From contig OY744469.1 of NCBI GenBank assembly GCA_963556145.1, forward strand, positions 4,746,767-4,810,766: a stretch of 64,000 nucleotides of DNA, in the 5' to 3' direction. Under the pieces are notes generated by a model. That model was given only the letters and a program-made list of their open reading frames with translations, made no database searches and had not been told where the DNA came from. Each line of letters opens with the position of its first letter. Position 1 is the first letter of the stretch. This document shows, piece by piece, positions 10,800 to 40,300 of this stretch. This DNA comes from Hygrocybe punicea. Lineage: Eukaryota; Basidiomycota; Agaricomycetes; Agaricales; Hygrophoraceae. The translations under genes were made by a program, and so were the position numbers.

Positions 10800-11583
10800 T
10801 GTAGAGGGTCCTCGACCCTCTGAGGCCGTAACATCGATATCTAGCGAATCCGCTTGAACCCGACATCTCTAGCAATCTACGCTCGAACCCGACGCAACCC
10901 GATGCATACCGACTAGCACGGCTGCTCACGTACCTGGTCGGTCTATCTCCTAAACTCACGGAACTTCAAATATCAAAGATAGATCTCATCGGACTGGGAT
11001 CCCGACATCGGACTTGCCTTATTCACGCCTAGCATCTCCCTTATGGGGATATAGTAAAGTATATTGCATCTTTTACGGTTTTTATATCTTCCACCCATTT
11101 TCCCTGTCATTGTCGCCTCGCAACACTCTTCCTACTTCCCCATTTTTATTCTCCTTTGTTTCCTCTCATCGGCCGAGGACTCTCGTCCGAATCTAGGTAC
11201 AGAAATTTGTAGTATAAAAATGGTGCCCAAGCGCTGTCTCATAATAAGAAACCAGTTCCCCCGTTTCCTCTCTCTGAGAATTAGTCTCTCAGTAAAATCC
11301 ATCGCACACATTACTCGTCAGATTCCTCGACGCTCTCCCCGTCGTTCTGCCGCCTTTATCTCTACGTCCCTCGTCACCCGACACCCGACCCGCCGTACCC
11401 GACATCATCGGCTTCATCGGCTTCGACCGGTCTCGATAGATTTCAGTAGTTTACTTGGCGGCTTCTTACCATTTATATACTATCATCTTACTGAAGCTTG
11501 TTAGACTATTCCTAGTCACTTCTACGCTGACCCCCACAGGCTTAGGATTATTATTCCGCAGCCACCCCGACCTCGCCTTTACA
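10800..11583 (+). repeat. LTR of family A (plus orientation, copy A')
   Basis: A 784-bp LTR with TG...CA ends (TGTAGAGGG at 10800, CTTTACA at 11583). It is recognised because an inverted copy of the same sequence lies at 13338-14130, at roughly 95% by eye. A TATA-like TATAAAA is at about 11214. Immediately downstream, after two bases, comes the primer-binding site. It begins 17 bp after the end of the broken Crinkler-like gene. Confidence 0.85.
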
Positions 11584-11585
11584 TC

Positions 11586-11603
11586 TGGAGCCCACCGCGA
11601 GGA
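11586..11603 (+). other. Primer-binding site of copy A'
   Basis: TGGAGCCCACCGCGAGGA starts with TGG two bases after the LTR, the expected place and form of a tRNA-primed minus-strand start site. The same 18 bases recur next to families B (34455-34472, minus) and C (35374-35391). The tRNA could not be named from memory; it does not look like initiator tRNA-Met. Confidence 0.75.
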
Positions 11604-11940
11604 GTAGTCTAGCACCACCATAGCTTCCTCTTCCCGTATCCCTCCCTCTGACCGTCGTCTTCGAGATCTTCCTCGAAGAACTCTTCAACAAGAACTCTCT
11701 TTAGCCGCCTTCGACCCGACAATCGATGACCACTTCTTCCAGCTAGTACCCGACCACCTCGCTCGACATAACAATCTCCCGGTCGTCTCAGGGTCAAACA
11801 CCCCCCTATATCTTTCATCCGACAGTCTCGAATCGGTCGATATACCGATAATTACCATTACACCCAACTCATCCGATCTCAGTTCGACACCCGCATCGCC
11901 TACGTCCCCGACTTCGACCTCGTTAGAACCCCCATCCACG

Positions 11941-12075
11941 TCTTCGCTCTCGACATCGAAAACTCCGTCATCGTCATCGTCTCCGTCTTCGCTCTCAACA
12001 TCGAAAACTCCGTCATCGTCATCGTCTCCGTCTTCGCTCTCGACATCGAAAACTCCGTCATCGTCATCGTCCCCG
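11941..12075. repeat. Three tandem 45-bp units in the gag leader
   Basis: A 45-bp unit beginning TCTTCGCTCTCGACATCGAA is repeated at 11941-11985, 11986-12030 and 12031-12075 with few changes. In the plus sense it reads Ser/Thr/Lys/Pro-rich text in the frame that runs toward gag, broken by a TGA at 12228-12230 just before the gag ATG. On the opposite strand it reads as Asp/Glu-rich. It is probably a low-complexity N-terminal gag extension or leader. Confidence 0.7.
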
Positions 12076-12231
12076 TCTTCGTCTTCGTCCACGCCGTCAT
12101 CGTCCACGTTACCTGACCCGCTCATCGTACACCCAACAACCGCTTCATCGACATCTCAGCGCCCTCCACCCACAATGACTTCGACCGCCAGATCCTCGAC
12201 TGCTACCGTTCCCCATGTTACTCCTTGACAG

Positions 12232-13398
12232 ATGCCCGCTCGCGGTCACTCCACGGCCCCGACCTTCGACGGGAACCCGCTCAATTTAAACCGCTTCTTC
12301 GAAGAAGTCGAGATACTTGCTGCCGATGCCGCTCTCGACGACGCAGGACGCATTAAGCATAGTCTGCGCTACGCGTCACTTAGCGACTACGAGCTATGGG
12401 CAAGTTTACCTAGTGCGACCGGCGTCGATTATGCCACATTCAAAAGGAGCATACTCGTGCTATACCCGGGCACGGAAGACGATCACCGGTACACTATGGC
12501 GGATCTCGACCATCTTATGCACACCCAAACCGCTTACGGTATCCGTACCCATGCCGAACTTGGTGAATATTACCGCGAGTTCATTCGGATCTCAGGATTC
12601 CTCTTAGACAAGGGTCGAATCTCTCCTCGAGAACGCAACATCGCGTACAAGAACGGCTTCCATCTCGAGCTTAAAAAGGACATCAAAACCCGTCTGCAGT
12701 ACCAAAAACCGAACCATTTCCATAGCGACCCTTACGACTTCCAGGACTTCCACAATTGCGCCCACTTCCTGCTGGCTGGAACCGCGGCCGAACCGTCCAC
12801 CGTCTCTCGTCTATCGTCAACGTCGCCTGCCGCCATCCAGTACTCGACTCCAATAGAACCCGCCACCCGCTACCCGCCACCCGCTCGCTATGACCCAGTC
12901 ATTCCTAAAGCGGAACCGGTCGAACCTAACGTATCCGACCTCTTTCGTCTTGTTTCGCAACAACTCGCCGTCCTCACGCAAGCCCTCACCGAACGCAACA
13001 ACCCCCCAAAGCCTTGTGCAAATAGGGCTGAGCCGACCACCGTGGGACAGGGTTTCACCAACTTCAACTGCCTCTTTTGCGACGACCCGTTCCATCGTAT
13101 ACGCGATTGTCCCATCTGCGAGCAGTACACTCGAGACGGAATATGCCGCAAGAACGAGCACGGCCGCATTGTATTGCCTAACGGAATGTATCTTCCAAAG
13201 GCTATCGTCGGCAAAAATATGAGGGAACGCTTCGACGCGTGGCATGCACAGAACCCCGGCAACCGCGCTCCCCCTGCCCGCAACCCCACAGAACCATTCC
13301 AATGCGACCCGCCGCCTCATGTCAAAGCTAACTTCGTTGTAAAGGCGAGGTCGGGGTGGCTGCGGAATAATAATCCTAGGCCTGTGGGGTCAGCGTAG
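12232..13398 (+). pseudogene. Family A gag (copy A'), truncated by a nested insertion
   Basis: The ATG at 12232 opens a frame of 388 codons. Its N-terminal ~190 residues (MPARGHSTAPTFDGN..., then LRYASLSDYELWASLP, LYPGTEDDHRYT) are the same domain seen in gag of families B and C, so this is a capsid-like region of Ty3/gypsy gag. A zinc knuckle C-x2-C-x4-H-x4-C (CLFCDDPFHRIRDC) lies at about residue 283. From 13338 the frame runs into the inverted LTR, so the last 20 codons are LTR sequence and the true C-terminus, protease and pol of this copy are missing. The gag acts as particle scaffold and RNA binder. Confidence 0.85.
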
Positions 13399-14130
13399 AA
13401 GTGACTAGGAATAGTCTAACAAGCTTCAGTAAGATAATAGGATATAAAAGGTAAGAAGCCGCTGAGTAAACTACTGAAATCTATCGAGACCGATCGAAGC
13501 CGACGAAGCCGACGATGTCGGGTACGGCGGGTCGGGTGTCGGGTGACGAGAAACGTAGAGATTAAGACGGTAGAAGGACGGGGAGAGCGTCGAGGAAACC
13601 GACGAGTAGTATGTGCGATGGATTTTACTGAGAGACTAATTCTCAGAGAGAGGAAACGGGGGAACTGGTTTCTTATTTTGAGACGGCGCTTGGGCACCGT
13701 TTTTATACTACAAAGTTCTGTACCTAGATTTGGACGAGAGTCCTCGGCCGATGAGAGGAAACAAAGGAGAATAAAAATGGGGAAGTAGGAAGAGCGTTGC
13801 GAGGCGATGATGACAGGGAAAATGGGTGGAAGATATAAAAACCGTAAAAGATGCAAAATACTTTACTATATCCCCATAAGGGAGACGCTAGGCGTGAATA
13901 AGGCAAGTCCGATGTCGGGATCCCAGTCTGATGAGATCTATCTTTGATATTTGAAGTTCCGCGAGTTTAGGAGATAGACCGACCAGGTACGTGAGCGGCC
14001 GTGCTAGTCGGTATGCATCGGGTTGCGTCGGGTTGCGTCGGGTTCGAACGTAGATTGCTAGAGACGTCGGGTTCGAGCAGATTCGCTAGATATCGATGTT
14101 ACGGCCTCAGAGGGTCGAGGACCCTCTACA
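13338..14130 (-). repeat. 3' LTR of family A (minus orientation)
   Basis: A 793-bp LTR in reverse: TGTAAAGG at 13338 is the complement of the LTR end and CTCTACA at 14130 the complement of its start. It carries a 10-bp duplication (an extra GACGCAACCC unit near 14020) relative to the plus copy. Its position downstream of the minus-strand integrase makes it the 3' LTR of the minus copy of family A, and its outer edge (13338) cuts gag of copy A'. The other end of that copy is not present, so no target duplication can be matched. Confidence 0.8.
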
Positions 14131-14209
14131 TCTCCTTGGGTCTTCTAATAGAGACCATCCGTGGTCGAGAATATGGGGTCTCCGAATGCGGGTCGCGAAT
14201 GTGGCCAAT

Positions 14210-14215
14210 CACGTG
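14210..14215. promoter_or_regulatory. CACGTG E-box upstream of antisense gene X (family A)
   Basis: The palindrome CACGTG, in the context CCAATCACGTGAG, lies 86 bp before the X start codon. An equivalent site precedes X in family C, and CACGTG also occurs in the LTRs of T1 and T2. E-boxes are bound by bHLH factors; function here is inference. Confidence 0.45.
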
Positions 14216-14300
14216 AGCGGCCAAACAACGGCAAAGTAAAAAAAATAAAAAAATTCTCGTTGTTGATCCGACCTTTCCTCTACACCATCACACGTTCACA

Positions 14301-17300
14301 ATGTCCCAAGTCTATGACAACTTCCTCGCCTTCGTCGAAAGCATTGAACCCGATGTCCGGGCGGACTATGAAGAGGCCGTCAACGCGGTCACCGTGTTTC
14401 ATAGCGACGACCTCGTAACGATGGTGGACGGCAACGAGGGGATGGCCCAACAATGGTTAAGCGGCCGCAAGAAAGCGCTGGTGAGTTTCCTTATTGACTA
14501 CGCGTGTCCTAGGATAGCTCATGTCGTCCTGCCAGCGTGCTTATAATGGAATCGTCGCAGAACTCCGAGCTGGTGGTACGAGGCCAGTAACGCCACCGTT
14601 ATGGGCCGACCGCCAATCGTACGCCAACGATGTCGAAGAGTGGCTGAAAGAAGCGGCGGACCGAGAGAGGCAGGAAAAGGAAGAAGCCAGACGGCGGGCG
14701 GATGAAGAAGCGGCTACGCGGGAAGAGGAGGCCAGACGGATGGCAGAGGCAAATGCACGAGCGGAGGCGGAGAAAAGGCGAAAGGCGGCAGAGGAAAGGC
14801 GAGAGCGGCTTAGAATAGAACAACACGAGCAGCACTGGAATCAAGAAGCGGACCGGGTTGAAAGGGATGGAGCCACATATTGGCGGCGGCTCAGCGAAGA
14901 ACGGTGTAGTAGTTGTGCCTGGTCAGTCACGTGATCAGGTTCCCACGGTTTGACCTAGTCAGTAGCCTTCCAGATGTAGTAGTCAGTCCATCCTTCCTAT
15001 CCAGTCGACCTTTCCCTCGAGTCCTGCGTGAGCCCCCGGAGTGGTACCTCGGTACCACTCCAACGTGGTGATGAGAGTGTTCTTCGACTCCATGCCTCTC
15101 TCTTTTTTCTCTCGGGTTCCCACTCCTTACGACTTTCTCGCGAGACGACCTTTTTTCGGCCTCACCACCCACTGCTGCGCAACCGCGCATTTTCTCTTCA
15201 CTCACGGCCGTACAACACTCAAATTACCCCCCGGTGCACATGTTCAACCCAATAGGGCCCCGCGTCGCCCCCCGTTGACCCAAAAAACACGCCCGCGACC
15301 CTTCTCAGCACCCAAGCGGCAGGCCACGTCACTTTTTTCGACCCCCCGAATTTCCACTTTCTTTAGACCCAGCCATGTCCAGACAACCCCCCGCAACTTC
15401 GTTCGACGTTCCGGAGCCCCGCGTTCCCCATCAGGATCCCACGTAGCCCGCTACTGCGAGTTTAGGACAACCCAATGAAAATCGCAGCGCCGCCGCACGG
15501 ACCCCGTTTCTCGTCACCCCCACCCCTACACGGACCCATTCGACTCCCCGCACACTCGTCCCACCGGCCAGGACCCCCCGTTTCCCTCCATTGTGCCAAA
15601 CGAACCCCCACCGTCGTTTTCGGACACCCGAGCCACGCGCCACGTCACCATCGCGCGGCCCCGTTCTGCCAGCACAACCGGCCCCAGACCAGCTCACCAA
15701 TCTCGCGGCCCACCCCCCAGAGCACCCTGCGTCTCGCTAACGCCCCGAACGAGCCCCCACCGCCGTTTTTGGTCACACCACGGATCCGTCGCGCCCCCCC
15801 GTTCTTTCGTGTACCCCAGCCCCACACGGACCCATTCGACCACCCGTGCCCTCGTTCCACCGGCCAGGACACCCCGTTCACCTCCATTGCGCCAAACGAG
15901 CCCCCGCCGTTGTTTTCAGACACCCGGGCCACGCGCCACGTCACCATCGCGCGGCCCCATTCTGCCAACATACCCAGCCCCGGATCGACTCACGAAGCTC
16001 GCGGCCCACCCGTTCACCATCCCGGAGCACCCCACCTCGATCCAATACCACCGTGCCCACCGTTCCCAGACCCCCACCGCGTTCCGCCACGTCACCATCT
16101 CTCGGCCGGATTCTTGCACCATACCCGGCTCCTCGAGCCCTCGTTCAGCTCCCCGCAACCTCGTTCTCGACCCTGGCGACTTCCCCGACCCGTAGGGACC
16201 CAAACGAGTCACCGCCGCGACCACTTAGCACCCCAGCGCTAGTCCCCTCATATCGAGAATCCCCGATGCCACCGCATGGCCCAATGCACCCGTATGCTTT
16301 CCCTTTCCCCCGTTTACACCGTACCTTGTCCCGTCCTATCCCCTTTCCCCACCCTCGACATTTATTGGATATTCGACCTATCTACGAACCATCACTGCTC
16401 GACAGCACCGTACCTATTTACTTTCGCACGAACCACCCAGTCTATTTTCGGATCACAAGAACTCACACCCTGGGCTACAAGAACTTATGGTTTTGAACGT
16501 TTTTATCCTACCCTGCGATGTGAGTCCCAGAGGCATTCGAGGATGGAGGAGCAGAGCAGAGTTACAGTTTGGTCATCTACCACCCCCAACGATCTTGGAG
16601 GACGATACGGTCCCGCCTCACGTGTAAGGCCCGGGGCATCGTGAGGGACTGGGAGTCGTGACTGGAGAGTTTTTTTCTTGGTCAGTTTTGTTTTGCTTTT
16701 TGTTTTCTTTTAGTAGCGGTATGGTGACGAGGACGTCACCATGAGGAGGAGGGGCACTTGTAGTAGTTGTGCCTGGTCAGTCACGTGATCAGGTTCCCAC
16801 GGTTTGACCTAGTCAGTAGCCTTCCAGATGTAGTAGTCAGTCCATCCTTCCTATCCAGTTGACCTTTCCCTCGAGTCCTGCGTGAGCCCCCGGAGTGGTA
16901 CCTCGGTACCACTCCAACGGCGAGCTGAAGCAAACGCATCGGTCGCGGGTGAACCAAGGACTGAGTCGATTCCGGAGGGCGAAGCCGCAGTTGAGCCAGA
17001 GGAAGGCCCCGTCGACCCGGTACCAGAGACACCGGCCAATGTAGAAGACGTACATACGCCGGGCGTAGAGACCGGAGACTTGGCTGGTACAACGGTGAGT
17101 TCTTGTGTCGGTTCATTTGTTCTTTAGTCACTGATCCTGGTAACAGTTCACCGGGCCGTTTCCCCTACAACCCTGCACCAACTGCATCAAGGTGCAAGAG
17201 GCGTGTCGAGGCGTCACGGGCTACGTGTGCGAATGATGCCGGAGGCTGAAGAAAAGATGTACTAACGCTACACACCGGACGGGCGGGGGTCGGCGCAAGG

Positions 17301-17713
17301 TGGATACCGGAAAGGGCAAAGAGGTCGCGGTCGGCACAAGGAAGCCGTTGTCGTTCACGACAAAGCCCATCCGCAGTAGGCCTGCCCGGGCCTCAACGAG
17401 CAAACCGCGGGTCGAGGACATGGAGTCGGTCGAGGACGATGACGAAGACGAGGAGGAGTCGGAGGAAGAGCAGCCGACGAAAAGGCTTAGGGCGGCTTCG
17501 GCAGCAAACCCGTTCGTTTTGACGATGGAGAATTACGAGCAAGTGTCGGCGTGGCTAGCGGTCCTTACGGAGGAGCTGGGAGCCCTGGGCACCAACGTCA
17601 ACCGTCACCTCGTCCACTTCGGTCAAGAGTTCCAGCGGCTTCGCGTCGATCTCGAACGGTCGACCTCAAGGTTGGCGATGTTGAAGCGGGATTACGAGAC
17701 CGGCCGCCTGTAA
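14301..17713 (+). pseudogene. Gene X of family A: antisense Zn2Cys6-like coiled-coil protein, split by T1
   Basis: Exon 1 is 14301-14480. Exon 2 is 14536-14904, resuming at 16921-17094 once the inserted element T1 and its duplicated ACGG are set aside. Exon 3 is 17147-17713. All junctions are in phase (about 429 residues). The N-terminus is MSQVYDNFL... The middle is a long charged coiled coil (Glu/Arg/Ala repeats). Exon 3 opens with six cysteines at codons 10, 13, 20, 28, 31 and 38, that is C-x2-C-x6-C-x7-C-x2-C-x6-C, the Zn(II)2Cys6 spacing. An in-frame TGA (17234-17236) occupies codon 30. The C-terminus is acidic, then helical with leucine heptads. It is transcribed opposite to the family A pol genes, between integrase and the 3' LTR. 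No host homologue is recognised. Confidence 0.7.
14905..16916 (+). mobile_element. T1: small LTR element (158-bp LTRs) inserted in gene X
   Basis: Direct repeats 14905-15062 and 16759-16916 (TGTAGTAG...CTCCA) differ at one base (CG at 15006-15007 versus TG in the right copy). ACGG flanks both sides (14901-14904 and 16917-16920). A primer-binding-like TGGTGATGAGAG begins at 15066 and a purine tract (GAGGAGGAGGGGCA) precedes the right LTR. The 1.7-kb interior is C-rich with a roughly 300-bp internal tandem duplication (compare 15616-15675 with 15910-15970). No intact open reading frame resembling that of T2 was found, so T1 looks non-autonomous or decayed. Confidence 0.8.
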
Positions 17714-17920: not shown

Positions 17921-20900
17921 TTAATCGTCGTCGGGTGAGGAGTCTATAGAGGGCGGGTACGTCGGATCATCAAGATCGTTTGAATCGGTATCGTCGGCAT
18001 CGGGGTATTGTAAGAAGTCGTCCAACGGTATCGATATTTTTGAGCGGGCGTGGTAGGGTACAACTCGGAAAGCGGCAAATCGAGATTTAGAAACCGCACC
18101 GTCGAGTTCGGCGAGTATGTAGGATCCGCCTTCTGTTTTCCTGATGACAACCATGGGTCCAAAGTACCGCGGTTTTGCTTTACGATCGAGAGACATTTCG
18201 ATACGTGAATTTCGGACGAGAACAAGGTTACCGGGTTCGAAGTCGTAAACTTTGATCGTGTTGGCGTATTTCTGCTCAAATTGCCGGGCGGACGTGAGCC
18301 GAGATTTGGTAAGCTTTTCTTTGACCCAATCGAGGTCGGCTTCTCGTTTACGAAGTTGTCGGGTGCGGATGACTATGAGGTCGGTCGTAGACATCGTATC
18401 TTGCGTCGGAACCATGTACGTAGCTTTGGCAAAATCGAATGGAAAAAGCGGTTCTACTCCGTGTGCGATGTAGTAGGACGAGTATCCGAGGCTTTTGTGT
18501 GTCGTGACCTGTTCGGCCCAAAATACGGAGTGGGTTACGGTGTGCCATTTCTTTTCATCTCCGTCACAACTTTTCATAATGGCCTCCTGGACATCTAGGT
18601 GGCAACACTCAACGGGTCCGTTCGCTTGTGAGTTATAGGGCAAAATGCGGATGTGGCGGATACCGTAGCGGGAGGCGAGATAGTCAAGCGCTTCTATGAA
18701 CGGCTTGCCGTTGTCGGTGACGATTTCTTCGAGAGCGCCCCAACGGCATAAGATGTCTTTGAACAAGAACGTGCCGATGGTGGAGCCGGTCTCGCGGCGT
18801 AACATGCGGAACTCAGGGTAGGCGGACAGGGAGCAACGGGCTTGGACGATGTATCGATAGCCGCCGGATCGTGGCATAAACATTGTGTCGACATACGCTT
18901 TACGAAATAGTGAGGCCGGTGTAGCGACGGTGGGCGGAATGTGATGATAACGCATTTGCCGTACTTGGCACTGATGGCAAGACTGGACGTACCACTTAAC
19001 GTCGTGGTCGAGGTGCGGCCACCAGAAACGATCGAGTAGCCAAGCGCGGACGGAGAATATACCTTTGTGGCCGAGAGAGTCGTGAGCGTCTTTGAGTAAC
19101 TGAAGCCGGCGGTCGGGCGGTATGACAAGTTTGTGTTTTCCGTGACGGTCTTTGCGCCAAAGCTTGTTATCGGTGACAAAGAATTCAAGGGTGTATCGTA
19201 AGAACAGACGGTATTCTTCGTCCGTGAAGTTCGCGGGTCGGGTTAGATCCCGTAACCAGGTCTCGACGAGGGCAAGACGAGCGTCGGCCGCGCGGGCTTT
19301 ATCGGATCGCGGTATGTCAGAAACGGCTTCCTGATTTGTGTAGACGAGGACGGCGGGTAATTCTTGGAGTCGGTCGGCTGTGGCACGGCAGCGGCCGCAT
19401 ACGGCAATCGGCTTAGACGGTATGGGGACAGGTCGGTAGTTGACGACTTCCATAAAGAAACCGTAGGAGTGGTCGAGCCAATCGTCGGAATCGTTGATCT
19501 CCTCGGGGTCTTCTGCAGTGCGGGGACGTCGGGAGAGTCCGTCGGGTGCACCGTGTGCGGAAGCGGGTACGTGAACGAGTCTAAAGTCAAATAAGAGCAC
19601 GCCGGCTATCCATCGGTTGATCGTTGCATTGGGCTGAATGTCGGGGTTGTTGAGCATCCCTTTTATGTACTTCGCGTCGACTTCAACAGTGAGGTTGCGG
19701 ACGCCGATGATGAAGATTCGGTAGGCACGGAGGGCCCTGAAGAGGCAGTAGAGTTCGAGCTTGGACTGGGAGTATCGGGCTTCGCATTCGTTCCACGATA
19801 TTGAACCAAAGTGATTCGGATAGCGCTTTCCGTCGGCGCGGATTTGCATAAGAACAAAGCCGACTCCAAGAACGGATGAATCGACGGCGAGAATCACTTC
19901 CCATTCACGCATGTAGTTGATAGCGCGCAGCGCTGGCGACGTAATGACGGCGTTTTTGAGGTAGTCGACGGCGGTCTCTTCTTCTTCACCAAATTCGAAG
20001 GGTATACCTTTGCGGGTAAGACGGACAAGGGGTCGGGAGTGGAGCGAGAAGTCCTTGATAAAAATACGCAAGACGCCGCAGATACCGAGAAAGGCGCGAA
20101 CTTCAGTGAGGTTGGTCGGCAGTGGCCAATCGCGAATCTTCTGTACTTTGGAGTCGTCGGCTACTCTTCCTTCGTATGTGCATCGGTGGCCAACAACGAT
20201 GACTGAGGGTCAACACAACTCGAGTTTTTTGCCGTTGAAGGTACCGCCGACATAGCGGAAACGCTGGATGACGCGGTTGACACCTTGGAAGTGTTCCCAA
20301 ATGAAACGTCGGATTGCCGGGTTCTCGGGTATAGTCTCGTAGGTACCGTCGGGTTGCTCGTAGCGGGTTGGAGGCCCTTTGATGGGAATATCGTCCATAT
20401 ACGGAACGGCAAGATGAGGGATTTCGTCATGGAGGATGTACGTGGAGTCACCGTGTAGGATCTGCGGGGAATTTGTGTATCCCATAGCAATCCGCGTAAG
20501 TCGAAGCGTTCCGAGTGGAGACTGAAAGGTCATATAGTCCCGAGACGAGGGGTGGACGAGGCGTTGGTCGAAAGAGACGAAGAGGTCGAAGGAAGCGTAG
20601 CAAGAGTGGCCGCCAAAGGCCTTGGCCAAGTGCTCGGTCATGGGCGGTATGGCGGGATCGCGGATAGTGACGGCGTTAAGCGGCTGTAGATCGTGGATGA
20701 TTCGAAGAGACTTCCTGTCCTTTTTCAAAACGCAGAACCAGCGGGAGCGATATGACGAATTCGAGGGTTCATAGGTACCGGCGTTAATTTTGTCTTTGAT
20801 GATGCCGATGACTTCGTTAAGGATGCCGGGTGGGATTGGGATATTGCGATGGACCCACGGGTCGTGCAGTACGGTGGGAATGTGGATCGGCGGGAAGTAG

Positions 20901-21573
20901 TCCGTATTGAACTGGCCTTTCTCGGATTCGTTCCAGGCGAAGGCAGCTTCTTGCGTCTTGATGATATGGTGGCCGAGTTTTTCTTCCTCAGGCCAAAGGA
21001 ATCCATCCGGGTTCATCGGCATCGCGTCGTGTCGTTCCTGAGTATAGCGGGTGCCGGGTGTAAAGTCGGGCGGGTGAGTCAGGAGCGTGGGTAAATCGGC
21101 TAGCGGGTCACTGGTGATCTCGCATATGATGCGGTATTCGTCGGGGAGAGTGGTAGAAATTGGGCGGATACGATCGGCTACCTTCTTATACTTTTTCTTG
21201 GTAACAACTCCTTTTAGGTCCCTGGTAGGGGGGGTGGTATACGAGATATAAGTAGCGTGTTCAGTAGAGGCTTTGTTACAAATATTCGAAGAAGAAATAT
21301 GTGACGCAGGAGCGGAGACGGAACAAGACGAAGGAAGGGTATCGGTAGTACGTAGCTGATTTTGTACATCGGTCAACAATGAAATGTACTGGGCGGCAGT
21401 CTGAGGCTGAGACGAAGAGAAATCTAAATCGATAGAAAAACATAAGTCCTCTTCTAGGGGAAAGGGCAAAAGGGAAGCATAGTTCGTGGTATAGGTGTGG
21501 TCGCTTTCGAGTGGCGGCTTCTCATCTCCCAGTGCGTCCTTTCCGAGAGGTATCTCCGGGTCCTCGACTTCTA
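17921..21573 (-). pseudogene. Family A pol: reverse transcriptase, RNase H, integrase
   Basis: One minus-strand frame runs from the end of the protease gene to 17921 (about 1,215 codons), broken by a single TGA at 20210-20212. Order: RT with LRIIHDLQPLNAVTI, DLF and the catalytic YMDD box near 20400; RNase H (AVDSSVLGVGFVL ... SKLELYCLFRAL ... DGLSRRP); an H-H-C-C zinc module (HDSLGHKG ... CHQC); an integrase core with Asp (VDTM), Asp (TDNG) and Glu (NGPVE); then a GPF/Y-like strand (RYFGPMVVI). RNase H before integrase marks Ty3/gypsy. There is no ATG at the pol start. The frame overlaps the protease stop in the -1 position, so expression by frameshift is inferred. The TGA stands where CGA is likely, so this copy is probably inactive. 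Confidence 0.9.
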
Positions 21574-22410: not shown

Positions 22411-22679
22411 CAGTAGACCCAGTCGTTTTGGTTAACCCAATCGCAGATATAGTTGCAAAAGGTAGGTACACATAGCGCAGTTGCTTGCTGGGGGGGTAGG
22501 TTAACCCAAGAGACAGCTCTTGCTGGGGAAATGTGGGGTGGTAGGTTGACCCAGGTACAGCTCTTGCTGGTCAAGGGTGGCAGGGTGGGTCAACCCAGTG
22601 TCAGCTCTGCCATGGGGTAGGTTAACCAGGGACAGCTATTCTGGGAAGGTTGGGTTGACCCAGGTCCAGCTGTGCAAGC

Positions 22680-23340
22680 AACGTGGGTTGACCTGGGTTG
22701 ACCGTGGACCAGCTCTTGCTGCAGGCTTGGGTTGACCTGGGTCCAGCTGTTGCTGCAGCACTGGGTTGACCGGGGCCCAGATATTGCTGCACCACCAGGT
22801 TGACCCAGATCCAGCACTTGCTGCAGGGCTTGGGTGGACCAGGGTCCAGCTATTGCTGCAGGACCGGGTTGACCTGGGTCCAGCACTTGCTTTGGGGCTT
22901 GGGTTGACCCAGGTCCGGCTCTCCCTGCAGGCTTGGGTTGACCTGGGTCCAGCTATTGCTGCAGCACTGGGTTGACCGGGGTCCAGCACTTGCTGCAGCA
23001 CTGGGTTGACCAGGGTTCAGCTATTGCTGCAGCACTGGGTTGACCTGGGTCCAGCACTTGCTGCGGGGCTTGTGTTGACTGGGGTCCAGCTATTGCTGCA
23101 GCACTTTGTTGACCCCTGTCCAGCACTTGCTGTAGGGTAGGTTGATTGGGGTCCTGCCCGTCGTGTAGCATTGCGTTGACCGCAGACCCACCCATGTCGC
23201 AGGATTGGGTTCATGACGGTCTGGCTATTGCTCCAGCATTGGGTTGACATGGCCCTGCTCTTGCTGCAGACGAAGGTTGACCCTGGCCCAGCTCTCACTG
23301 CAGGATTAGGTTGACCAGGAGCCTGCTTTTGCTTTGACAT
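22680..23340. repeat. Left 34-bp tandem array of the fold-back element
   Basis: The unit is a TTGACC(T/C)(G/A)GGTCCAGC core with TGCTGCAG spacing, about 34 bp per repeat, degenerate. Reading frames stay open across the array in several frames because 34-bp units with conserved codons cycle through; these are not taken as genes. Confidence 0.8.
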
Positions 23341-24825
23341 GGGCCCAGCCACATCCCACTCTGCCTGCATGTATTTAATGTTGACAACATTGACAGAGCT
23401 CACAACAGCTCAAACCAATATTTATTCAGAACCTGCCATATATATAAAGTAATCAAAATGTTTCAATCTGTACTTCACATAAATGTACGATGTAATATAA
23501 TTTGAATGCAATTATTAACAGCACAGGGAATAGCAAAATTACACAATTATTATTTTGACACTGCACAATATCTTACTTTTACTATCAGCCATCAGCCATT
23601 ACAGGAGCTACTTATCCCCAATGCCAATCTATGGCAAAACCAGAAATTACCCCACTTGGAATATTGTGCTTTTCTATTTAATATTGCTCAATTCTCTATT
23701 GGAATCAATATATATAACCTTACTATTACTTAAAATAGACACATACATTTAATGATTATTAAAATACATAATTAAATAGTAAAGGGCAGGAGGCAGGTGA
23801 GAGGAAGGTGGGTGTGGACTGGGAGGAAGGGTGTGGGTGTGGGAGGAAGGTGGGTGTGGGTGTGGGAGGAAGGTGGGTGTGGAGTGGGAGGAAGGTGGGT
23901 GTGGGAGTGGGAGGAAGGTGGGTGTGGAGTGGGAGGAAGGTGGGAGTGGGAGTGGAGGAAGGTGGGAGTGGGAGAAGGGAGTGAGAGTGGGAGAAGTGGG
24001 AAGGTGGGAAGGCAGGAGGCAAGGGCAGCAGGGAGAGGGAGAGGGAGAGGGAGAGGGAGAGGGAGAGGGAGGAGGAGAGGGAGGAGGAGAGGGAGGAGGA
24101 GTGGGCGGAGAGTGGGATGTACGTACCCGTTGCGTTCCCCTCGTCCTCGTCGTCTTCGTCTACGTCTCCGTCATCCCCGTCCCCGCCGTCCCCGTCCCCG
24201 TCGTCCCCGTCCCCATCGTCCCCGTCTCCGCATTCCGGTCCCTGTCGTTCCCGTTCCCGTCATTCCCCTCGTCGTCATCATCGTCCTCGTTGTTGTCGTC
24301 ATCCCCCGTAGTCCTCGTCGTCCACTGGATCGTCATCGTCGTCTCCCTCGTCCTGTCGTCTCCGTCGTCCTGTTGTCCTCTCGCTGGCCGTCTCCGTCCC
24401 GTCGTCGTCCCCTGGCTGGCCGTCTCTGCCCTCGTCGTCTCTGTCCTTGTCGTTGCCGCTGTGGTTGTCTCGGACGTCTGTCTCGGTCGTTGACGCATCC
24501 TCGTACCCGGCCTCGCGGCCTCGTTTCCGTGGCCGTTTTCATCGGCATCCGTTCTGTTTGCTGGGGTGGCCGTGGCGTTGTTTTCTGGGCTGGTGTTGGG
24601 TTCGCCTGTGTTTGTCGTGGGTGTAGCTGCAATCATTATAAACATTAGCATACAACTCACAAAAAATTCAAAAAAGACATTACCTTGGGTGCTCTTCTGC
24701 ACCCGTTTCCTGTTGTTGACGCGTTCCTGTTGTTGACGCGTTGTTGAAAACGAGTCGTTTGAAGTCGCGTGAAAGCCAACCGGCAGTTGCCGATTTCCCA
24801 AACGGGTTCGAGTTGCCAAACATGG

Positions 24826-25519
24826 ATGTGTGGCTGAAGCTTTTGAATCTTCTGGCATGCACAACAATGCATGCATACCCAAAGTCAGATCCTCAAAAGA
24901 TGTAAATATAGTATACCTACCCTCATGTCAAACTTTGTATTTTATTCGGCCCTGCGTAAAGAGCTATTCACCATTTATTCCATTCCTCTGCCAGAATTGG
25001 ACCCTTAATGATCTAACTTTGTCTTAAAAATCTGAAATTAATCTAAGGAGTACTTGAAGAAGTACTCATTGTGGTACACATAAGTGCCTGATTGTTGGTG
25101 GACCAGGACCTTTGTTGCAGCCAAGCAAATGCACAGAATTGTGCATTGTGGCTGACCCATCAACCGAGTCCAAACTTCAGCTTTACTCTGAACCTTTCAT
25201 TTCTTGGCTACAACAGATTTCTGGGACCACCAAGTGCCAGGCACTGATCATCAATACAATAGATACTTTACATAGTAGTTTCACAATTATTTTCATATTT
25301 TTCAGAGCAATATTGGTAAAGTTGCACTTTAAGGGTCTGAAATTGGCAGGGAGGTATCAATGAATCATAAATATCTCTCTATGTAGGCCATAATAAAATA
25401 CAAAATTTGGGGAGGATGTAGTTATAGGCTACTTCTATCCCCTCATGGTCTTAAATGTGTTACAAAGTTGTTGTGCTCTATGCAATAACATTGAGAAAAG
25501 TCAGATCATGCTTACATAT
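24826..25519. other. Central spacer of the fold-back element
   Basis: About 700 bp of AT-rich sequence between the two inverted arms. No coding sequence, repeat or promoter is recognised. Confidence 0.5.
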
Positions 25520-26779
25520 AAGGCAACTCGCACCCGTTTGGGCAATCGGCAACCTCCGGCGTGCGTTCAATCGTCGGCGATTCGTCGCGTACTCCACGAT
25601 GCGTCCACGAAAACAGCAGCAGCAAAATCAAGTAGAAGGTAAGTAGATTTCTCAAATTTATTATCCATTACTATGCTAGCTAATATTGTTGTTTTTATGT
25701 AGAACTTTCTCATTGCCGTGCCGGGAATGGACCGCAACACGCTTGCCCGCGCCACGTCACGTCAACGCCAAACTGAAGGGCCGAAACGGCGGATGGCAGG
25801 CAACGACGAGGACAGAGGCGATGAGGGCACAGACGGCCAGCCAGGGAAGACGACGGGGACGGAGACGGCCAGCGAAGAGACGACAGGACGACGGAGACGA
25901 CGACGACGATCCAGCGGACGACAAGGACTACGGGGGATGACGACGACAACGAGGACGATGACGACAACGAGAGGAACGACGGGAACGGGAACGACAGGGA
26001 CCAGAACGGCGGGGACGGGGACGACGGGGACGAGGACGGCGGAGACGTAGACGAAGACGACAAGGGCAACGGGAACGCAACAGGTATGTACATCCCACCC
26101 CTCCGCCCTCGTCTCCTCCCTCTTCCTCTGCCTCTCCCACTCCCACTCCCTGCTGCCCCTCCCTCCTCCCTTCCATCCTGCCCTTCACCCTCCCTTCTCC
26201 CACTCCCACTCCGTTCTCCCACACCCACACCCATACCCATACCCACACCCACACCCATACCCATACCCACACCCACACCCACACCCACTTCCAGTCCCAG
26301 TCCCAGTCCCAGTCCCAGTCCCACTCACACCTACCTTCCTCCCCCCCAACCCCTTTATTATTTAATTATGTATTTGGATAAAATAATAATTAATTTGATA
26401 TGTCCATTCTAAGTAATAGTGAGTGTTTGTGTACTGATTCCAATTGAGATTTGAGTAATATTAAATAAAAAAGGCACAAAATTCCAAGTGGGGTAATTTC
26501 TGGTTGTTATATATATAAATTTTGTTTGGGAATAAGTAGCTCATGTGAGAGATAAAGCTAAGAGTGAGAGATTGTGCATTTTCAAAATAAGAATGTTGTA
26601 ATTTTGGTATTACCTGTGCTTTGAATTATTGCATTTGAAATTATATTACATTTGAAGAAACTGAGACATTTTCTTTACCGGATATTGCATTTTCTGAATA
26701 AATATTGGCTTGAGTTGTTGTGAGCTCTGGCAATGTTGTCAACATTAAATACATGCAGGCAGAGTGGGATGTGGCTGAG

Positions 26780-34474: not shown

Positions 34475-34764
34475 AAATGATACGGTTTCCATGTCTATGA
34501 CCTCGGATAAAGAGATAATAAAAGAGAAACACTTCAAAAAGTTGCGAACGGGACTTGGGACACACCCGACGGTAATGCGATAAAGCGTGATGAAACGCGC
34601 GAAGAAATAATATAATGCGATGAAACGCGTGATGATGCGAAGACGCAGCGCAGTAAGAAACGGAGATTGGAAGGCTTAGCTGAGTGTCCTAGATGACAGC
34701 ATGGTACGCGGCGATGACGCGACGAGACGGGGTTTCTGCGCTACGACTTATGTCGCTATAGCGG
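34475..34764 (-). repeat. Probable 5' LTR of family B, inner part
   Basis: The 290 bp between the primer site and element C have the position of the family B 5' LTR. The remainder should resume at 39761 after the duplicated GCGG, up to roughly 40300. No second LTR copy of family B is in the window, so limits are inferred from position only. Confidence 0.45.
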
Positions 34765-35371
34765 TGTAGAGGCTCCGGGCCCTCTGGACCCAAATCCTCT
34801 TCATATCCCACTTCGTCCCTGTCCATTCCCATTCACGTATCGTCGATTCCGCCCGATTCCGGTCCTTTCTGTCGATTCCGCTCCGGATTCCGCCTCCAGA
34901 ATCGTTCATACTCAAGATGCGATGTCTCTAACGACCCGGAATCAGTACGTATATAGTTACATATGATATATCTTCGTTTCCCGTTACTTAGTACATAGCA
35001 TCATTCCTCCTATACTCCGCTCCACTCCTCTCCTATCAGTTACAGCCTTCGGTTGTAGTACATAGTTACTAGAGCACAGGATCTCTCCCAGTAGTATAAA
35101 AGATGTACCCTTATACTACAACCATATCATATCCCATCATAGAGAAAATACAGGTTATCGCTCCCCTTCAGTTCTATTTCTTAGTCCTCACTTCGTATCG
35201 TCTCCATATTAGTCTTTGTACTCCACTCCCTACACTTCCCCTCTGATCCAGAACCCCTGGATTCGGGTTGGATTGACTAGACTATAGACACTAAACTCCT
35301 CTGATCACTTCTTAGCTGATCACCCTTTCCGTAGATTCCCATTCGGGTCTACAACCAAACTCGCCATCACA
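34765..35371 (+). repeat. Element C 5' LTR
   Basis: 607 bp, starts TGTAGAGGCTCCGGGCC. Contains GTATAAAAG near 35094 as a TATA-like box. Compared with the 3' LTR it has six substitutions, each turning a CpG into TpG or CpA. Confidence 0.9.
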
Positions 35372-35373
35372 AC

Positions 35374-35391
35374 TGGAGCCCACCGCGAGGA
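35374..35391 (+). other. Element C primer-binding site
   Basis: TGGAGCCCACCGCGAGGA two bases inside the 5' LTR, identical to the primer sites of families A and B. Confidence 0.8.
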
Positions 35392-35565: not shown

Positions 35566-37737
35566 ATGACGACCGGATTCATGCCTCTCCGAGGTGATCC
35601 CTCAGCCCCGACATTCGACGGAAACGAACTCGACCTTCCCCGCTTCTTTGACGAAATTGACATGCTCGGCTCCGACTGTGGACTCACGGACGCTATGAAG
35701 ATTCGCTATACGCTCCGGTACCTCAACAACGACGATTACGAACTCTGGTCGACACTTCCCGCCGCTTCCGCTAAAGACTTCATCGCTTTCCGACGTGCCG
35801 TCTTCGACTTTTATCCCGGTGCTACGGATTCCATCCGGTATACGATCTCGGATCTCGATCAACTTACGCGACGACAATCGGCTTACGGTATAGAGAACAA
35901 AGCGGACTTAGGACAATATTTCCGGGATTTCATACACATTTCCGGTGTCTTGTTTAACAACGGCTGTCTAACGGATAAGCAACGGAACACATACTTCGCC
36001 AACGGATTCAACTCAGACCTTCGTCTACGTATTGAAGAACGCCTCCATTACCTTCTTCCCGACCATTACCACGACGATCCATACCCGCTCGATGTTTTCC
36101 ACGATGCCGCCTTATTCCTACTTTCCAGTTATCGCTCCGTTCCGAAATCCCCTTCCTTTGCCGTTACCATCTCTAGTCCCGATTCCAGTCCCAGTCCCCC
36201 ACCCGTCATAGCTTTGTCATCTCTGGTCCCAATTCTGACCTCGATCCCGCCCACCGTCGTTCGTTCCGTCGCCCACGTTCATTCTGGTCCTACGTATACT
36301 CTGTCCCCTTTATCGCATATTCCGTCCCTGTCCATTCCGGTGCCCGTCGAGACCGTCATTTGTTTACAGGTATTGTCGTCCAGTCCCATGTCGTCCCTGT
36401 CCGATCCCATTCCCGATTTATCGATGCCGGTCACCAATTTATCCAATTCATTTCCTATTTCGTCCACATCGTTTCCGGATTCGACCCCTCCGCTTTCCGT
36501 CCATGAACTCGTACCGGACCCGCTCCCATTGTCATCGGATTCTCCAGAAATAGACATTCCGTCCCCGATATTGTCGCCATATTGTCCTCCGTCACCGTCT
36601 ACTGAGATTCCGTCGACTTTGGTTGAGTATTCCGTACCCGTTCCCATTCTGGACTCCATTCCACCCCTTGTATTTGATTTCGATTCCGGTTCCGATTCCG
36701 TTATGTCGACCCCTTCGTTCCCGGTTCCCCTCGTAGTTCCCGCTCCCGTATCGTCTCCGGTTCCCTCCTCGCCCGCTTGGGGCACTTCGTCGTTTCCGCC
36801 CGCTTGGGGCACCCCGTCGTTTTTAGACCCGTCACACGGCACACCCGTTATATGGGATCGTGTTGGTGTCGGCACTCTGGTTCTCGATTTTATTTTATTC
36901 CTCATTTCCGTCTTCATTCTACTTTGTGATCGCATTTTGGACCTCCGCCCCCTCAACACCTCGCTCGAATATTTGCAAGAAGTTCTCCACCTCCTCTCGT
37001 CATTCCGCCTCCGACCTTCTTTCAGAAACTCTTGTGGGGATGTAGACCCGTTACCGTCTCCTATTTTTGCGTTTTCATCTTCCGTTCCGCTTTCCATTCC
37101 CGCTCCCGTTTCTCATTTATTTATATTTTCATTTCCGTTTCTAGTTTTCTTTGTTTCCCGTCCTTTCCGGTCCCATTTTGTTTCCGTTGTATTCCGGTCC
37201 TGTCCTCCACCTCGACCTCCAGATTCTGGCTTATGTAGTTACCCGTTTCTCCCTTTCCGTTATAGATTTTATTATGTACTCATTTTATTTTTATGTACAT
37301 TGTCCCGTGGTTCGTTTCCCCTCCTTTTCCGTCCATTTCCCTTCTACTCCCTTCTCCTTTCGTCGAGTTTTGTGTCGATCATGTCGAGTTGGCCAAAGAT
37401 ATGGGCTTGGTTCGCGCGTAGTTGGTTCAGCTCCTTCGTCCAACGGGTTAGCTTCGAATGGACCTCCGCAACATACTCCGAGAGGCCATCCGCAATCGTC
37501 GATATCTCCCTCTGCGTTTCCGTCGCCATCTTGCGCACTGCCCAGACGTGGTCGTTGATTCCGGCTCCGATCTGTGGGTGCTTGAACGGATTTCCTTGTC
37601 TCCCTTCGTCCCGCTCCAATTCTGTATCCGGTTCGATGTCGGTCAATGTCCGCTTACTCGTCGACGCCTCTCCGGTCCGCAACCTAGGCTTCCTCACGGG
37701 CCTTGGTATTTTCTTCGCGACGATTTTCCTCTTTTGA
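35566..37737 (+). CDS. Element C gag
   Basis: The 723-codon ORF starts MTTGFMPLRGDPSAPTFDGN. Residues 1-190 align by eye with the gag of family A (RYLNNDDYELWSTLP, DFYPGATDSIRYT, GIENKADLGQYF). After residue ~200 it becomes Ser/Pro/Val/Thr-rich low complexity with no visible zinc knuckle. From 37344 it overlaps the antisense exon 3 of gene X, so its last ~130 codons are probably not under gag selection. The functional gag may end earlier or be a capsid-only protein. ATG 35566 is about 175 bp after the primer site. Confidence 0.7.
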   Translation: MTTGFMPLRGDPSAPTFDGNELDLPRFFDEIDMLGSDCGLTDAMKIRYTLRYLNNDDYELWSTLPAASAKDFIAFRRAVFDFYPGATDSIRYTISDLDQLTRRQSAYGIENKADLGQYFRDFIHISGVLFNNGCLTDKQRNTYFANGFNSDLRLRIEERLHYLLPDHYHDDPYPLDVFHDAALFLLSSYRSVPKSPSFAVTISSPDSSPSPPPVIALSSLVPILTSIPPTVVRSVAHVHSGPTYTLSPLSHIPSLSIPVPVETVICLQVLSSSPMSSLSDPIPDLSMPVTNLSNSFPISSTSFPDSTPPLSVHELVPDPLPLSSDSPEIDIPSPILSPYCPPSPSTEIPSTLVEYSVPVPILDSIPPLVFDFDSGSDSVMSTPSFPVPLVVPAPVSSPVPSSPAWGTSSFPPAWGTPSFLDPSHGTPVIWDRVGVGTLVLDFILFLISVFILLCDRILDLRPLNTSLEYLQEVLHLLSSFRLRPSFRNSCGDVDPLPSPIFAFSSSVPLSIPAPVSHLFIFSFPFLVFFVSRPFRSHFVSVVFRSCPPPRPPDSGLCSYPFLPFRYRFYYVLILFLCTLSRGSFPLLFRPFPFYSLLLSSSFVSIMSSWPKIWAWFARSWFSSFVQRVSFEWTSATYSERPSAIVDISLCVSVAILRTAQTWSLIPAPICGCLNGFPCLPSSRSNSVSGSMSVNVRLLVDASPVRNLGFLTGLGIFFATIFLF

Positions 37738-38812
37738 CTACCCACCTTCGCCTTCCCTTTCCTTTCCGCTTTTCCAGATCCGGTGGCCGGTCCCTTCGTC
37801 GATAATCCGCAGCATCGTTTAAGCCTTTTGCATCAATCGCACGCATACCCCTCGATTCCGCGACAAACCGCATTGGCGGTCACGCACGCATCGCATTGCC
37901 GGATCCAGAACGACTGCATGTACTACGGATTAGTTAGGCACCACGGATATACGAGTCCGTGAGATATCACTTACCCCTGGAATCTTTCCCTTCGGTTCCA
38001 CATCCTCGTTCCCGCTCGCATTCGAGAAATCATTGCCGCTGTTGTAGTCCCCGTGAACGGTCTCGTCGTCCCAGTTGACCCTCTTATCCCAGTTGAGCTT
38101 TTTGTGTTTGATCGTGTTGAGTGCTTGAAGCCGCTCGTATTTTCGTAGTTGCTGATTGGACCAGGTGCCCTCCTCGTCCTCGCTTCCATGATAGCTGGTT
38201 TGTGCGGCCTCCTCCCGGTCCCTTTCCGCGGCTGCATCAGCCTCCCTTTTTGCTGCCTCTGCCGCCTTCGCCCTTTCCGCCTCCTCAATCCGCTTCTCCC
38301 CTTCCGCCCTCCTATTCATCTTCTCTTCATACTGATGCGATTCCTCCACCCGTTGCCGCTCGATCCTTTCCACCTCCTCGACCCATTGTTTCCTCGCTTC
38401 CTCCTCCTTTTCCTCCTGCAACCGTACAGCTTCCCGACGCCTCGCCTCTTTCCGTTCCCGTTCGTAGTTTTCCCAGCTCTGCAACCATTCCTCGACCTCC
38501 ACCACCATCTCTCCGCCCATTGAGAAATCCCTCGGTTCCGTCATGTCGATTCCGTTGTCCCGGATTTCCGTCAAGATTCCCCTGTAGTTCCGCTGCCGGG
38601 TATTGTTAGTCCGTGCCGTTTACAGGAACGGGATCTCTTACCATGGCCCGTCGTCGTCTCACCACCCATTGCCGTGCTTCGTTCTCGAATCCGTCGCGTA
38701 TGATATCGATTCCAGCCATGTCGACTTCTAGTAACTCGGCCACGGCGCTCTCGAAATCTTGCCGCGTTTCCGCATCGAGATTGTTGAGGAAATTGTCGTA
38801 TTCCGTCGACAT
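37344..38812 (-). CDS. Gene X of element C: antisense Zn2Cys6-like coiled-coil protein
   Basis: Exons on the minus strand are 38812-38642 (57 codons), 38592-37975 (206 codons) and 37922-37344 (192 codons plus stop), all in phase. The N-terminus MSTEYDNFLNNLD and the residues around intron 1 (RNYRGILTEIR) match gene X of family A (MSQVYDNFL, RAYNGIVAELR). Both introns sit at the same places. The middle is a strongly charged coiled coil. Exon 3 has cysteines at codons 10, 13, 20, 28, 31 and 38, the Zn(II)2Cys6 spacing, followed by basic residues (KRLKR). The only break is TGA at 37833-37835, codon 30. The C-terminus is helical. It runs opposite to gag, just inside the 3' LTR. A nuclear DNA-binding role is inferred from the cysteine spacing; the coding sequence would give about 455 residues if TGA is read. 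Confidence 0.72.
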
Positions 38813-38925: not shown

Positions 38926-39149
38926 ACCGTTGTTCCTTTATCCAGCCGTTTCGCCCCACCCTCTTTCAGTAGCTCCGGACCACTGCCTCCCGACGCTTCG
39001 ATACCCGCCGGCTTCAACTCCGCTCACGTTGTACTCCCCTTTCCGTCCGTTTTCGACATCGCATCCGCTCATTTATTCCCATGACCCCGGTATCTTCGTT
39101 ATTTCATATGGATCGACCAGGGATGGTCTCTATCTGAGTCCTGACCGGA

Positions 39150-39756
39150 TGTAGAGGCTCCGGGCCCTCTGGACCCGAATCCTCTTCATATCCCACTTCG
39201 TCCCCGTCCATTCCCATTCACGTATCGTCGATTCCGCCCGATTCCGGTCCTTTCTGTCGATTCCGCTCCGGATTCCGCCTCCGGAATCGTTCATACTCAA
39301 GATGCGATGTCTCTAACGACCCGGAATCAGTACGTATATAGTTACATATGATATATCTTCGTTTCCCGTTACTTAGTACATAGCATCATTCCTCCTATAC
39401 TCCGCTCCACTCCTCTCCTATCAGTTACAGCCTTCGGTTGTAGTACATAGTTACTAGAGCACAGGATCTCTCCCAGTAGTATAAAAGATGTACCCTTATA
39501 CTACAACCATATCATATCCCATCATAGAGAAAATACAGGTTATCGCTCCCCTTCAGTTCTATTTCTTAGTCCTCGCTTCGTATCGTCTCCATATTAGTCT
39601 TCGTACTCCACTCCCTACACTTCCCCTCTGATCCAGAACCCCTGGATTCGGGTTGGATTGACTAGACTATAGACACTAAACTCCTCTGATCACTTCTTAG
39701 CTGATCACCCTTTCCGTAGATTCCCATTCGGGTCTACAACCAAACTCGCCGTCACA
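39150..39756 (+). repeat. Element C 3' LTR
   Basis: 607 bp. It retains CpG at all six places where the 5' LTR has lost it. It is followed by the GCGG duplication. Confidence 0.9.
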
Positions 39757-39760
39757 GCGG

Positions 39761-40300
39761 AGAATACACAACGAAAAGAGATGTAGACTGATTGAGAGTG
39801 ATTGGTTTTCTTAGAACTAAACCGCAGACCGATGAAAAGGGGAGAACTGGGTTCTTCATTCCTTTTTGCTACTACAAGACATTCCTTATATCCTAAAGGG
39901 ATAGGGTCATAAGGGTAGAGGAGTGAATAGAAATGCGGCGAAATATCGCATGAAAAGAGATGGAACGGCGAAGGAGAGTGAACAATTTGAAATAAAGGTA
40001 AGTATCACATGAAAGTCGGCAAAAAGAAGAAGATAAACCGGATGAATTACATTTCTGGTATCGGACTTGGTGTCCGAACACGCAGGAAGTGTGGACAATA
40101 CTGTTTCATCTTGTCGAGATCAGACCGCATCGGTAGGACCCAGCGATAACATAGCGAGAATGTCGCGAGAACGTCGAAAGTGCGCACGCATAAGTTGGCG
40201 AAGAGTCGCACAGATCGCGCCGAGTGCACGGATGTTTCGTAAGTACGCTGGATGCGGAAGAGTCATACGAAGAACAGAAATAATGATTTGAAACGATTCC
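39761..40300 (-). repeat. Probable outer part of family B 5' LTR
   Basis: A non-coding stretch that should continue the LTR of family B interrupted by element C. It includes several GCGA/TGCGAT words like those in 34560-34640. The outer border is not defined. Confidence 0.35.

Follow-up and report, generated by a model that had tools for sequence, protein, structure and literature searches.

Gene X at the locus

The window analysed here is a stretch of 64,000 nucleotides (nt) of the Hygrocybe punicea genome (assembly GCA_963556145.1, contig OY744469.1), which corresponds to C35:4746767-4810766 in the 92.2 Mb and 42 contigs that we examined. Two families of long terminal repeat (LTR) retroelements in this window, A and C, carry an additional spliced gene, here called X. 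The family A version, X_A, lies on the plus strand at 14301-17713, opposite pol/gag, and adjoins the family A 3' LTR. The family C version, X_C, lies on the minus strand at 38812-37344, opposite a gag-like open reading frame (ORF; 35566..37737, plus strand) whose 3' end overlaps exon 3 of X_C, and adjoins the family C 3' LTR. The original prediction had claimed this antisense position beside the 3' LTR in two families, together with three exons, introns at matching places and an MS..YDNFL start, all of which was borne out in both genes.

Exon 1 of X_A (14301..14480, plus strand; MSQVYDNFL...) is open and ends at a GT donor at 14481 in 23/23 aligned rows. It is followed by a 55-nt intron (14481..14535, GTGAGT...CCAG) with a GTGAGT donor and a YYAG acceptor in 23/23 rows, representing 21 distinct loci; the intron measures 56 nt in L008, L013 and L025. 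Given the 55-nt intron, exon 2 (14536..17094) begins with the codons CGT GCT and encodes a coiled coil. Intron 2 (17095..17146, 52 nt, GTGAGT...AACAG) is bounded by GT...AG in 23/23 rows, with a length of 52 or 53 nt. Exon 3 (17147..17713), for which matches were found across the genome, encodes the zinc-cluster region, a basic region and the C-terminal part.

The window copy of X_A is dead. Its exon 2 is split at ~14905-16915 by a small LTR element on the plus strand, whose LTRs (14905-15065 and 16759-16919 as aligned, 161 nt) are 99% identical and which is flanked by the repeat (A)ACGG, read by eye. This element is absent from the insertion point in other family A copies, and the two parts of exon 2 are contiguous in the other copies that contain both. 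In addition, a TGA codon at 17234-17236 interrupts the cysteine region (17174..17260, plus strand). The same codon is CGA in 21 of the 22 A copies read there and TGA in one other.

X_C has the same layout on the minus strand. Exon 1 (38642..38812; MSTEYDNFL...) is followed by a 49-nt intron with a CTAAC branch-like site (38593..38641), exon 2 (37975..38592) again encodes a coiled coil, and intron 2 (37923..37974, 52 nt) reads GTAAGT...CCGTAG. Both introns are bounded by GT...AG in all 18 copies with all exons. The acceptor of intron 2 is most likely CCGTAG, because the CAG downstream of it is CAA in several copies; exon 3 (37344..37922), also matched across the genome, therefore begins at 37922, 9 nt earlier than predicted, and its cysteines shift by +3 codons. 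Thus the predicted division into three exons held, while two limits had to be moved: this one and that of intron 1 of X_A. The cysteine region of X_C (37809..37895, minus strand) also contains a TGA, at 37833-37835, in the same cluster codon as the TGA of the window X_A. Among 17 other C copies this codon specifies arginine in 14 (13 CGN, of which four CGA, and one AGA) and is TGT in two and CAT in one. As both window genes are broken, our conclusions rest on other copies.

The two proteins had been described as differing greatly. At 28-30% identity this is correct, but they are clearly homologous (E 9e-15 and 2e-12).

Open copies and selection on the protein

For family A, we spliced 20 distinct copies of X, not counting the window copy; L003 and L007 (duplicates of L009 and L011), L028 (frameshifted) and L022 (partial) were dropped. 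Sixteen of the 20 are open over 429 amino acids (aa), and four have premature stops. The family C set comprised 20 loci including the window copy (L029). L045 and L048 lack their 5' end, and the other 18 retain all exons. Seven of these 18 are open, six have nonsense changes only and five differ by frame-breaking lengths. Exon 3 was also scored genome-wide, by eye: no in-frame stop was present in 131 of the 150 matches scored out of 488 candidates for X_A, and in 104 of the 150 scored out of 497 candidates for X_C. These counts are lower bounds on copy number, in which frameshifts are uncounted and some C matches are partial.

The ratio of nonsynonymous to synonymous substitution rates (dN/dS) was calculated by NG86, for family C from 13 in-frame copies with nonsense codons omitted. 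X_C gave 0.244 overall and 0.41, 0.26 and 0.18 (0.176) for exons 1, 2 and 3, and the seven intact copies gave 0.242. The most divergent copy, L044, gave 0.23-0.28 against the rest at a dS of 0.66-0.84. As a control, C exon 3 was also read off-frame: the two shifted sense frames gave dN/dS values of 1.18 and 1.55, and the three antisense frames gave 0.99, 0.25 and 1.95. The frame with the low antisense value shares its third positions with X and is that of the gag-like ORF, so the value is no proof of gag coding there. For X_A, dN/dS was 0.383 across the 20 copies (0.15, 0.53 and 0.39 for exons 1, 2 and 3). Length changes between copies fall in the introns (55/56 and 52/53 nt in family A).

X is thus a spliced antisense gene under protein-level selection. 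That its architecture has been kept by selection, as originally claimed, is upheld by these ratios and by the retained splice sites, and values near 1, the outcome that was to speak against the claim, are rejected for both families. A chance ORF was considered as an explanation for X and ruled out by splice-site conservation together with dN/dS and its off-frame controls.

The convergent layout could yield overlapping transcripts, a situation discussed in PMC7264820, and the antisense RNA rather than the protein might then be what matters, through double-stranded RNA or small interfering RNA control, with the ORF secondary. We consider this very improbable, as the dN/dS of the C exons (0.18-0.41) and the contrast between introns and exons indicate selection on the protein.

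Among family A copies, dS in exon 1 of X_A (0.088) is about twice that in exons 2 and 3 (0.036 and 0.040), hinting at exchange between subfamilies.

The cysteine region

Both X_A and X_C contain six cysteines in the spacing C-x2-C-x6-C-x7-C-x2-C-x6-C that had been read from the window copies. A looser regular expression of the cysteine pattern, run over six frames of the 64 kb, returned two matches, X_A and X_C. Zn2Cys6 clusters have the spacing C-x2-C-x6-C, a loop and C-x2-C-x6-C. The six cysteines of the corresponding Pfam profile, PF00172, are present in A and C with a loop of 7 and, with a loop of 10, in a third family, D, that is described below.

Profile comparisons point to an altered order of the two halves. 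The halves of X_A match PF00172 in swapped order, the first half aligning to profile positions 17-32 and the second to positions 1-14 (15.2 bits, E 0.023 each). The second half of X_C, searched as a 26-aa piece, matches positions 1-14 with 19.3 bits, and the second half of X_D matches positions 1-15 with 17.7 bits. Taken together, the region looks like a permuted Zn2Cys6-like cluster. Similar arrangements probably occur in unannotated basidiomycete proteins.

Several results weigh against this assignment. The gathering cut-off of PF00172, 21 bits, was never reached, the best score being the 19.3 bits of X_C; full-length X_A scored 12.0 bits and its exon-3 piece 18.8 bits, and full-length X_C, with X at its stop, gave no match to the profile. 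The first halves of X_C and X_D did not match PF00172 either, so the permutation is seen in A only, and there weakly. The original label of a Gal4-type zinc cluster was therefore right as to the cysteine spacing and too strong as a family assignment, since the cut-off is not reached and the halves are permuted in A.

Because parts of the cluster match PF00172, and Zn2Cys6 genes are abundant in fungi, X could be a Zn2Cys6 gene that was captured from the host and travels along as a passenger. We regard this as improbable: two families at ~28-30% identity retain both introns and the antisense position, and the dN/dS values contradict it, as passenger genes decay. An ancient host origin of X is possible.

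Position within the elements and a third family

Among the best 150 matches to Integrase_H2C2, X lies antisense within 3 kb downstream in 128 (82 X_A and 46 X_D), at a median distance from the integrase of 1246 nt for X_A and 1160 nt for X_D. No X_A or X_D was found within 3 kb upstream, or downstream on the same strand, among the matches listed. The count used 150 listed A rows and 65 of 94 D rows and covers families A and D; as the integrase matches are the best 150 by score, the sample favours these two families. Neither X_A nor X_D is present at 22 of the 150, which counts against the role proposed below. The search for further antisense copies that the original prediction called for was thus passed.

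Family D was found at L056, the sole positive among 12 pol-end stretches from other families. X_D is antisense and probably has one intron. It combines an N-terminal stretch resembling a coiled coil with six cysteines (C-x2-C-x6-C-x10-C-x2-C-x6-C), a lysine run and a C-terminal part. Near-full matches at >=94% identity numbered 47, and 34 of these, by eye, have no stop; a second group lies at ~62-68% identity and below.

Two further observations weigh against that role. X_D shares design and position with X_A but only weak similarity around the cysteines (E 0.047), so common descent is unproven, and the X-type pattern was not found past pol in L057-L060, whose pol-end stretches were resolved. 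The remaining stretches were uninformative: L049, L050, L053 and L054 lie inside a long open sense frame, and L051, L052 and L055 did not resolve. No relatives of X were found in a set of 5.8 billion proteins or, by pattern scans, in viral contigs; the presence of related fungi in these sets was unchecked, so that neither result is evidence of rarity.

In rows with an in-frame stop, the stop in X is nearly always TGA (by eye: 18/19 in A, 45/46 in C and 13/13 in the main D group), the pattern expected from C-to-T change at CpG. The diverged D rows contain TAG and TAA besides TGA.

LTRs and candidate CGG sites

The family A 3' LTR beside X_A (13338..14130, minus strand) has its X-proximal, unique 3' (U3) end at ~14130. 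It aligns to the LTRs of other copies, and in L009/L010, L011/L012 and L013/L014 to those at both ends. The family C LTRs are 617 nt long, and the 5' LTR (34762..35378, plus strand) is 98.5% identical to the 3' LTR beside X_C (39146..39762, plus strand).

Zn2Cys6 clusters prefer CGG sites, and each family has a CGG-containing hexamer near its X. In the family A U3, TCGGGT occurs at 14018, 14028, 14038 and 14067 (14018..14072, plus strand), and the decamer GCGTCGGGTT is present in 2 to 6 units across other copies (by eye). On the X strand of the window LTR, TCGGGT is found seven times, as against none in reverse; the top hexamer count of 8 was reached by 0/300 shuffles, and TCGGGT is the top-ranked hexamer of the LTR plus gap. 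The family C U3 contains a cluster with CGGAATC on the X strand (39229..39285, minus strand), and the C LTR has nine CGG in a stretch of 110 nt (1/500 shuffles). Upstream of X_D, 1490 nt hold 26 CGG where 9.9 are expected (0/500 shuffles), and CGGAGT is present eight times and is the top-ranked hexamer of the stretch from LTR to X. The whole 1490 nt were used here, as the limits of the D LTR had been placed by eye, in part at the onset of CGG richness, which biases a count within the LTR only. Each of the three hexamers is found largely in its own family and lies mostly in one orientation, that of X, across the element.

A number of results speak against these sites being functional. The hexamers were picked post hoc, and control regions likewise have over-represented hexamers (z 6-8). 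Clustering of CGG by itself is ordinary in A (98/500 shuffles), and no extra conservation of the A sites was found, their diversity being 0.045 vs 0.052 in the rest of the LTR; at CpG positions it is 0.097 vs 0.104 elsewhere in the LTR, which again shows no extra constraint. The top hexamer count of the C LTR was matched by 38/300 shuffles, CGGAAT is outside the top 12 hexamers of C internal DNA once composition is modelled, and other hexamers outrank CGGAGT in the D LTR alone. Given the post hoc choice, the ordinary clustering and lack of constraint in A, and the control hexamers, we treat the CGG sites as a lead.

Families A and C have in common a 61-nt block across the LTR/X junction (47/61 identical, 77%), and CACGTG precedes the ATG in both X_A and X_C. 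The block and CACGTG would fit a private promoter of X. The most conserved part of the family A 3' end is 14088-14237, with a diversity of 0.005-0.012 vs ~0.05 in the LTR; it spans the LTR end and the block common to A and C.

Host elements and neighbourhood

Opposite X_A, family A pol with reverse transcriptase, RNase H and integrase lies at 17921..21469 (minus strand) and has an intact homologue in L009. There, the LTR is followed by X on one strand and then by pol (1182 aa) and gag (781 aa) on the other. The reverse transcriptase/RNase H part of this pol matches the Ty3 structure 7q5b (E 5.5e-34), and an integrase is present.

The first ~195 aa of the family C gag-like ORF match gag A at 46% identity, with no match beyond. 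The window copy of family C showed no match to pol A and is gag-only, with LTRs and X. The tail of its gag has a ratio of 0.58 and 0.78 in the gag frame vs 0.78 to 1.04 off-frame, which gives no clear coding constraint. The capsid part found a match in 5 of 8 loci; the 8-way alignment is unreliable, and two pairs were comparable, with 10 and 16 mismatches. Elsewhere on the contig, at C35:1851876-1869778, five family C X exons lie on one strand at an exact spacing of 4334 nt and probably represent a tandem array of the element; close-scoring copies are present on C10, C18 and C24.

Further retroelement remains surround the two X genes. A second, inverted family A fragment at 10800-13395 combines an LTR (94% identity to 13338-14130) with a 388-aa piece of gag (96% identity to gag A). 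Between the A element and an element of a further family, B, large inverted repeat arms (22411-28190, up to 98%) consist in part of ~34-nt tandem repeats. Family B is gypsy-like (28197-34013), with a gag and protease ORF at 31785-34013 (minus strand) and a fragment of pol at 58% identity to pol A; its 722-aa ORF at 29315-31483 (minus strand) is without an X-type cluster.

Proposed role of X

X is placed near the 3' LTR, reads inward from the U3 side and converges on pol. Its predicted protein opens with a conserved N-terminal domain, which is followed by a charged coiled coil and the cysteine cluster; a basic stretch and a helical part at the C terminus complete it. From this layout we propose, as an evenly balanced proposition, that X serves Ty3/gypsy-type elements as an accessory regulatory gene, whose product binds CGG sites of its own family and sets transcription or silencing. 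X would have a spliced transcript of its own, read from the U3 side of the 3' LTR, and its product would fold, bind zinc, dimerise and enter the nucleus. There it may bind the CGG-containing candidate sites that are repeated in the U3 of its own family and elsewhere in the element, the putative partners being CGGGT in A, CGGAAT in C and CGGAGT in D. In this way it could set the transcription or silencing of the family, at the 5' LTR in trans and also at the promoter of X next to the 3' LTR. Family-specific CGG partners would explain why each family has a separate X, and why the gag-only family C keeps X without pol.

Instead, X might act in replication, as a nucleic-acid chaperone, a nuclear import adaptor or an integration-site tether, with a cluster that binds without sequence choice. 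Nuclear import has been raised for such ORFs in a review (PMC7264820). Basic stretches do lie downstream of the cluster, and the retention of X in gag-only family C makes an action on shared particles possible. Nevertheless, gag A and gag B already carry what we take to be CCHC knuckles, separate antisense expression would be odd for a particle part, and the family-specific CGG hexamers would be left unexplained; we therefore judge a replication role doubtful.

If X is a regulator, the sign of its effect is not given by its sequence. It could restrain its element, with a 3'-end antisense product that represses transcription of the sense strand and limits harm to the host, as HBZ and the APH proteins of human T-cell leukaemia viruses (HTLV) might suggest: the topology is that of the HTLV antisense genes, which are spliced and expressed from the 3' LTR (PMC10186651). 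On the other hand, many A and C copies have an open exon 3, which is easier to understand if X helps the element, and Pfam found no bZIP or known repressor domain in X. Restraint thus appears unlikely, if somewhat less so than the replication role, and we lean towards activation or anti-silencing, as by the VANC proteins of plant DNA transposons.

A more specific version of the regulatory proposal, which we put forward tentatively, is a self-recognition system in which an antisense, spliced gene with a permuted Zn2Cys6 cluster co-evolves with arrays of family CGG hexamers in its own LTRs. This would be an RNA-transposon counterpart of VANC and VANDAL, in which gag-only families keep X for their own copies.

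Since X occurs in family-specific versions, is under selection on the protein and combines a DNA-binding-type motif with candidate cognate sites that the same element carries, it makes the purpose of antisense genes in LTR elements open to simple binding and reporter tests. If the proposal is true, retrotransposons join the few mobile elements that encode a sequence-specific regulator of their own, and if the permuted zinc cluster is real, a major DNA-binding module of fungi is arranged here in an unusual way.

Comparison with known systems

In plants, additional ORFs that lie antisense between pol and the 3' LTR form a recognised class (aORF-3R), whose function has long been unexplained (PMC7264820, PMC11963269). 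The class includes Grande gene23, RIRE2 and Retand TRP28, with predicted DNA binding for the TRP28 type (PMC11963269, PMC7264820). Like its members, X lies antisense between pol and the 3' LTR, and its presence at a majority of the best 150 integrase matches sets it apart from a rare transduction; it differs from them in its two conserved introns and the permuted Zn2Cys6-like cluster, and Pfam scans of X_A and X_C gave no match to TRP28/PF04195. In fungi, brtn of the Boty/BcGypsy1 element of Botrytis cinerea is an extra antisense gene on the pol-3' LTR side (Zhao et al. 2011, as cited in PMC8365987 and PMC7264820). It resembles X in its antisense position within a fungal LTR element. The original view that nothing of the kind had been described therefore holds in part: the open-access literature searched, with most subscription papers outside its scope, yielded no zinc-cluster gene lying antisense in an LTR element of a fungus, but genes in antisense between pol and the 3' LTR are on record for plants and, with brtn, for a fungus.

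Among retroviruses, HBZ of HTLV-1 and APH-2/3/4 are spliced antisense genes transcribed from the 3' LTR, and HBZ is a nuclear regulator (PMC10186651). HBZ, which a human retrovirus encodes, belongs to the bZIP proteins. For X, splicing is predicted from the conserved splice sites; Pfam did not find a bZIP domain in X, and a PDB sequence search returned no relative.

X resembles the Gal4-type proteins of PF00172 in having C-x2-C-x6-C twice, basic residues in one half and CGG-type sites nearby, and departs from them in the reversed halves in A, the scores below the cut-off and its antisense location inside a retroelement.

The VANC proteins of VANDAL DNA transposons in plants recognise family-specific short motifs that lie in one orientation as tandem repeats of varying number, and both their binding and demethylation have been shown experimentally (PMC5735166). 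The A decamer, which varies from 2 to 6 units between copies, recalls this variation in VANC sites. A family motif repeated in one orientation is clearest in A and D and weaker in C, with motifs that were chosen post hoc. VANC belongs to a DNA transposon of plants and X to an LTR element; no shared domain was found, and the role of X is a proposal from sequence. X is no proven member of PF00172, HBZ or VANC. By position it fits the class of antisense genes between pol and the 3' LTR, to which it appears to add a new type of protein and a candidate VANC-like pairing of protein and sites.

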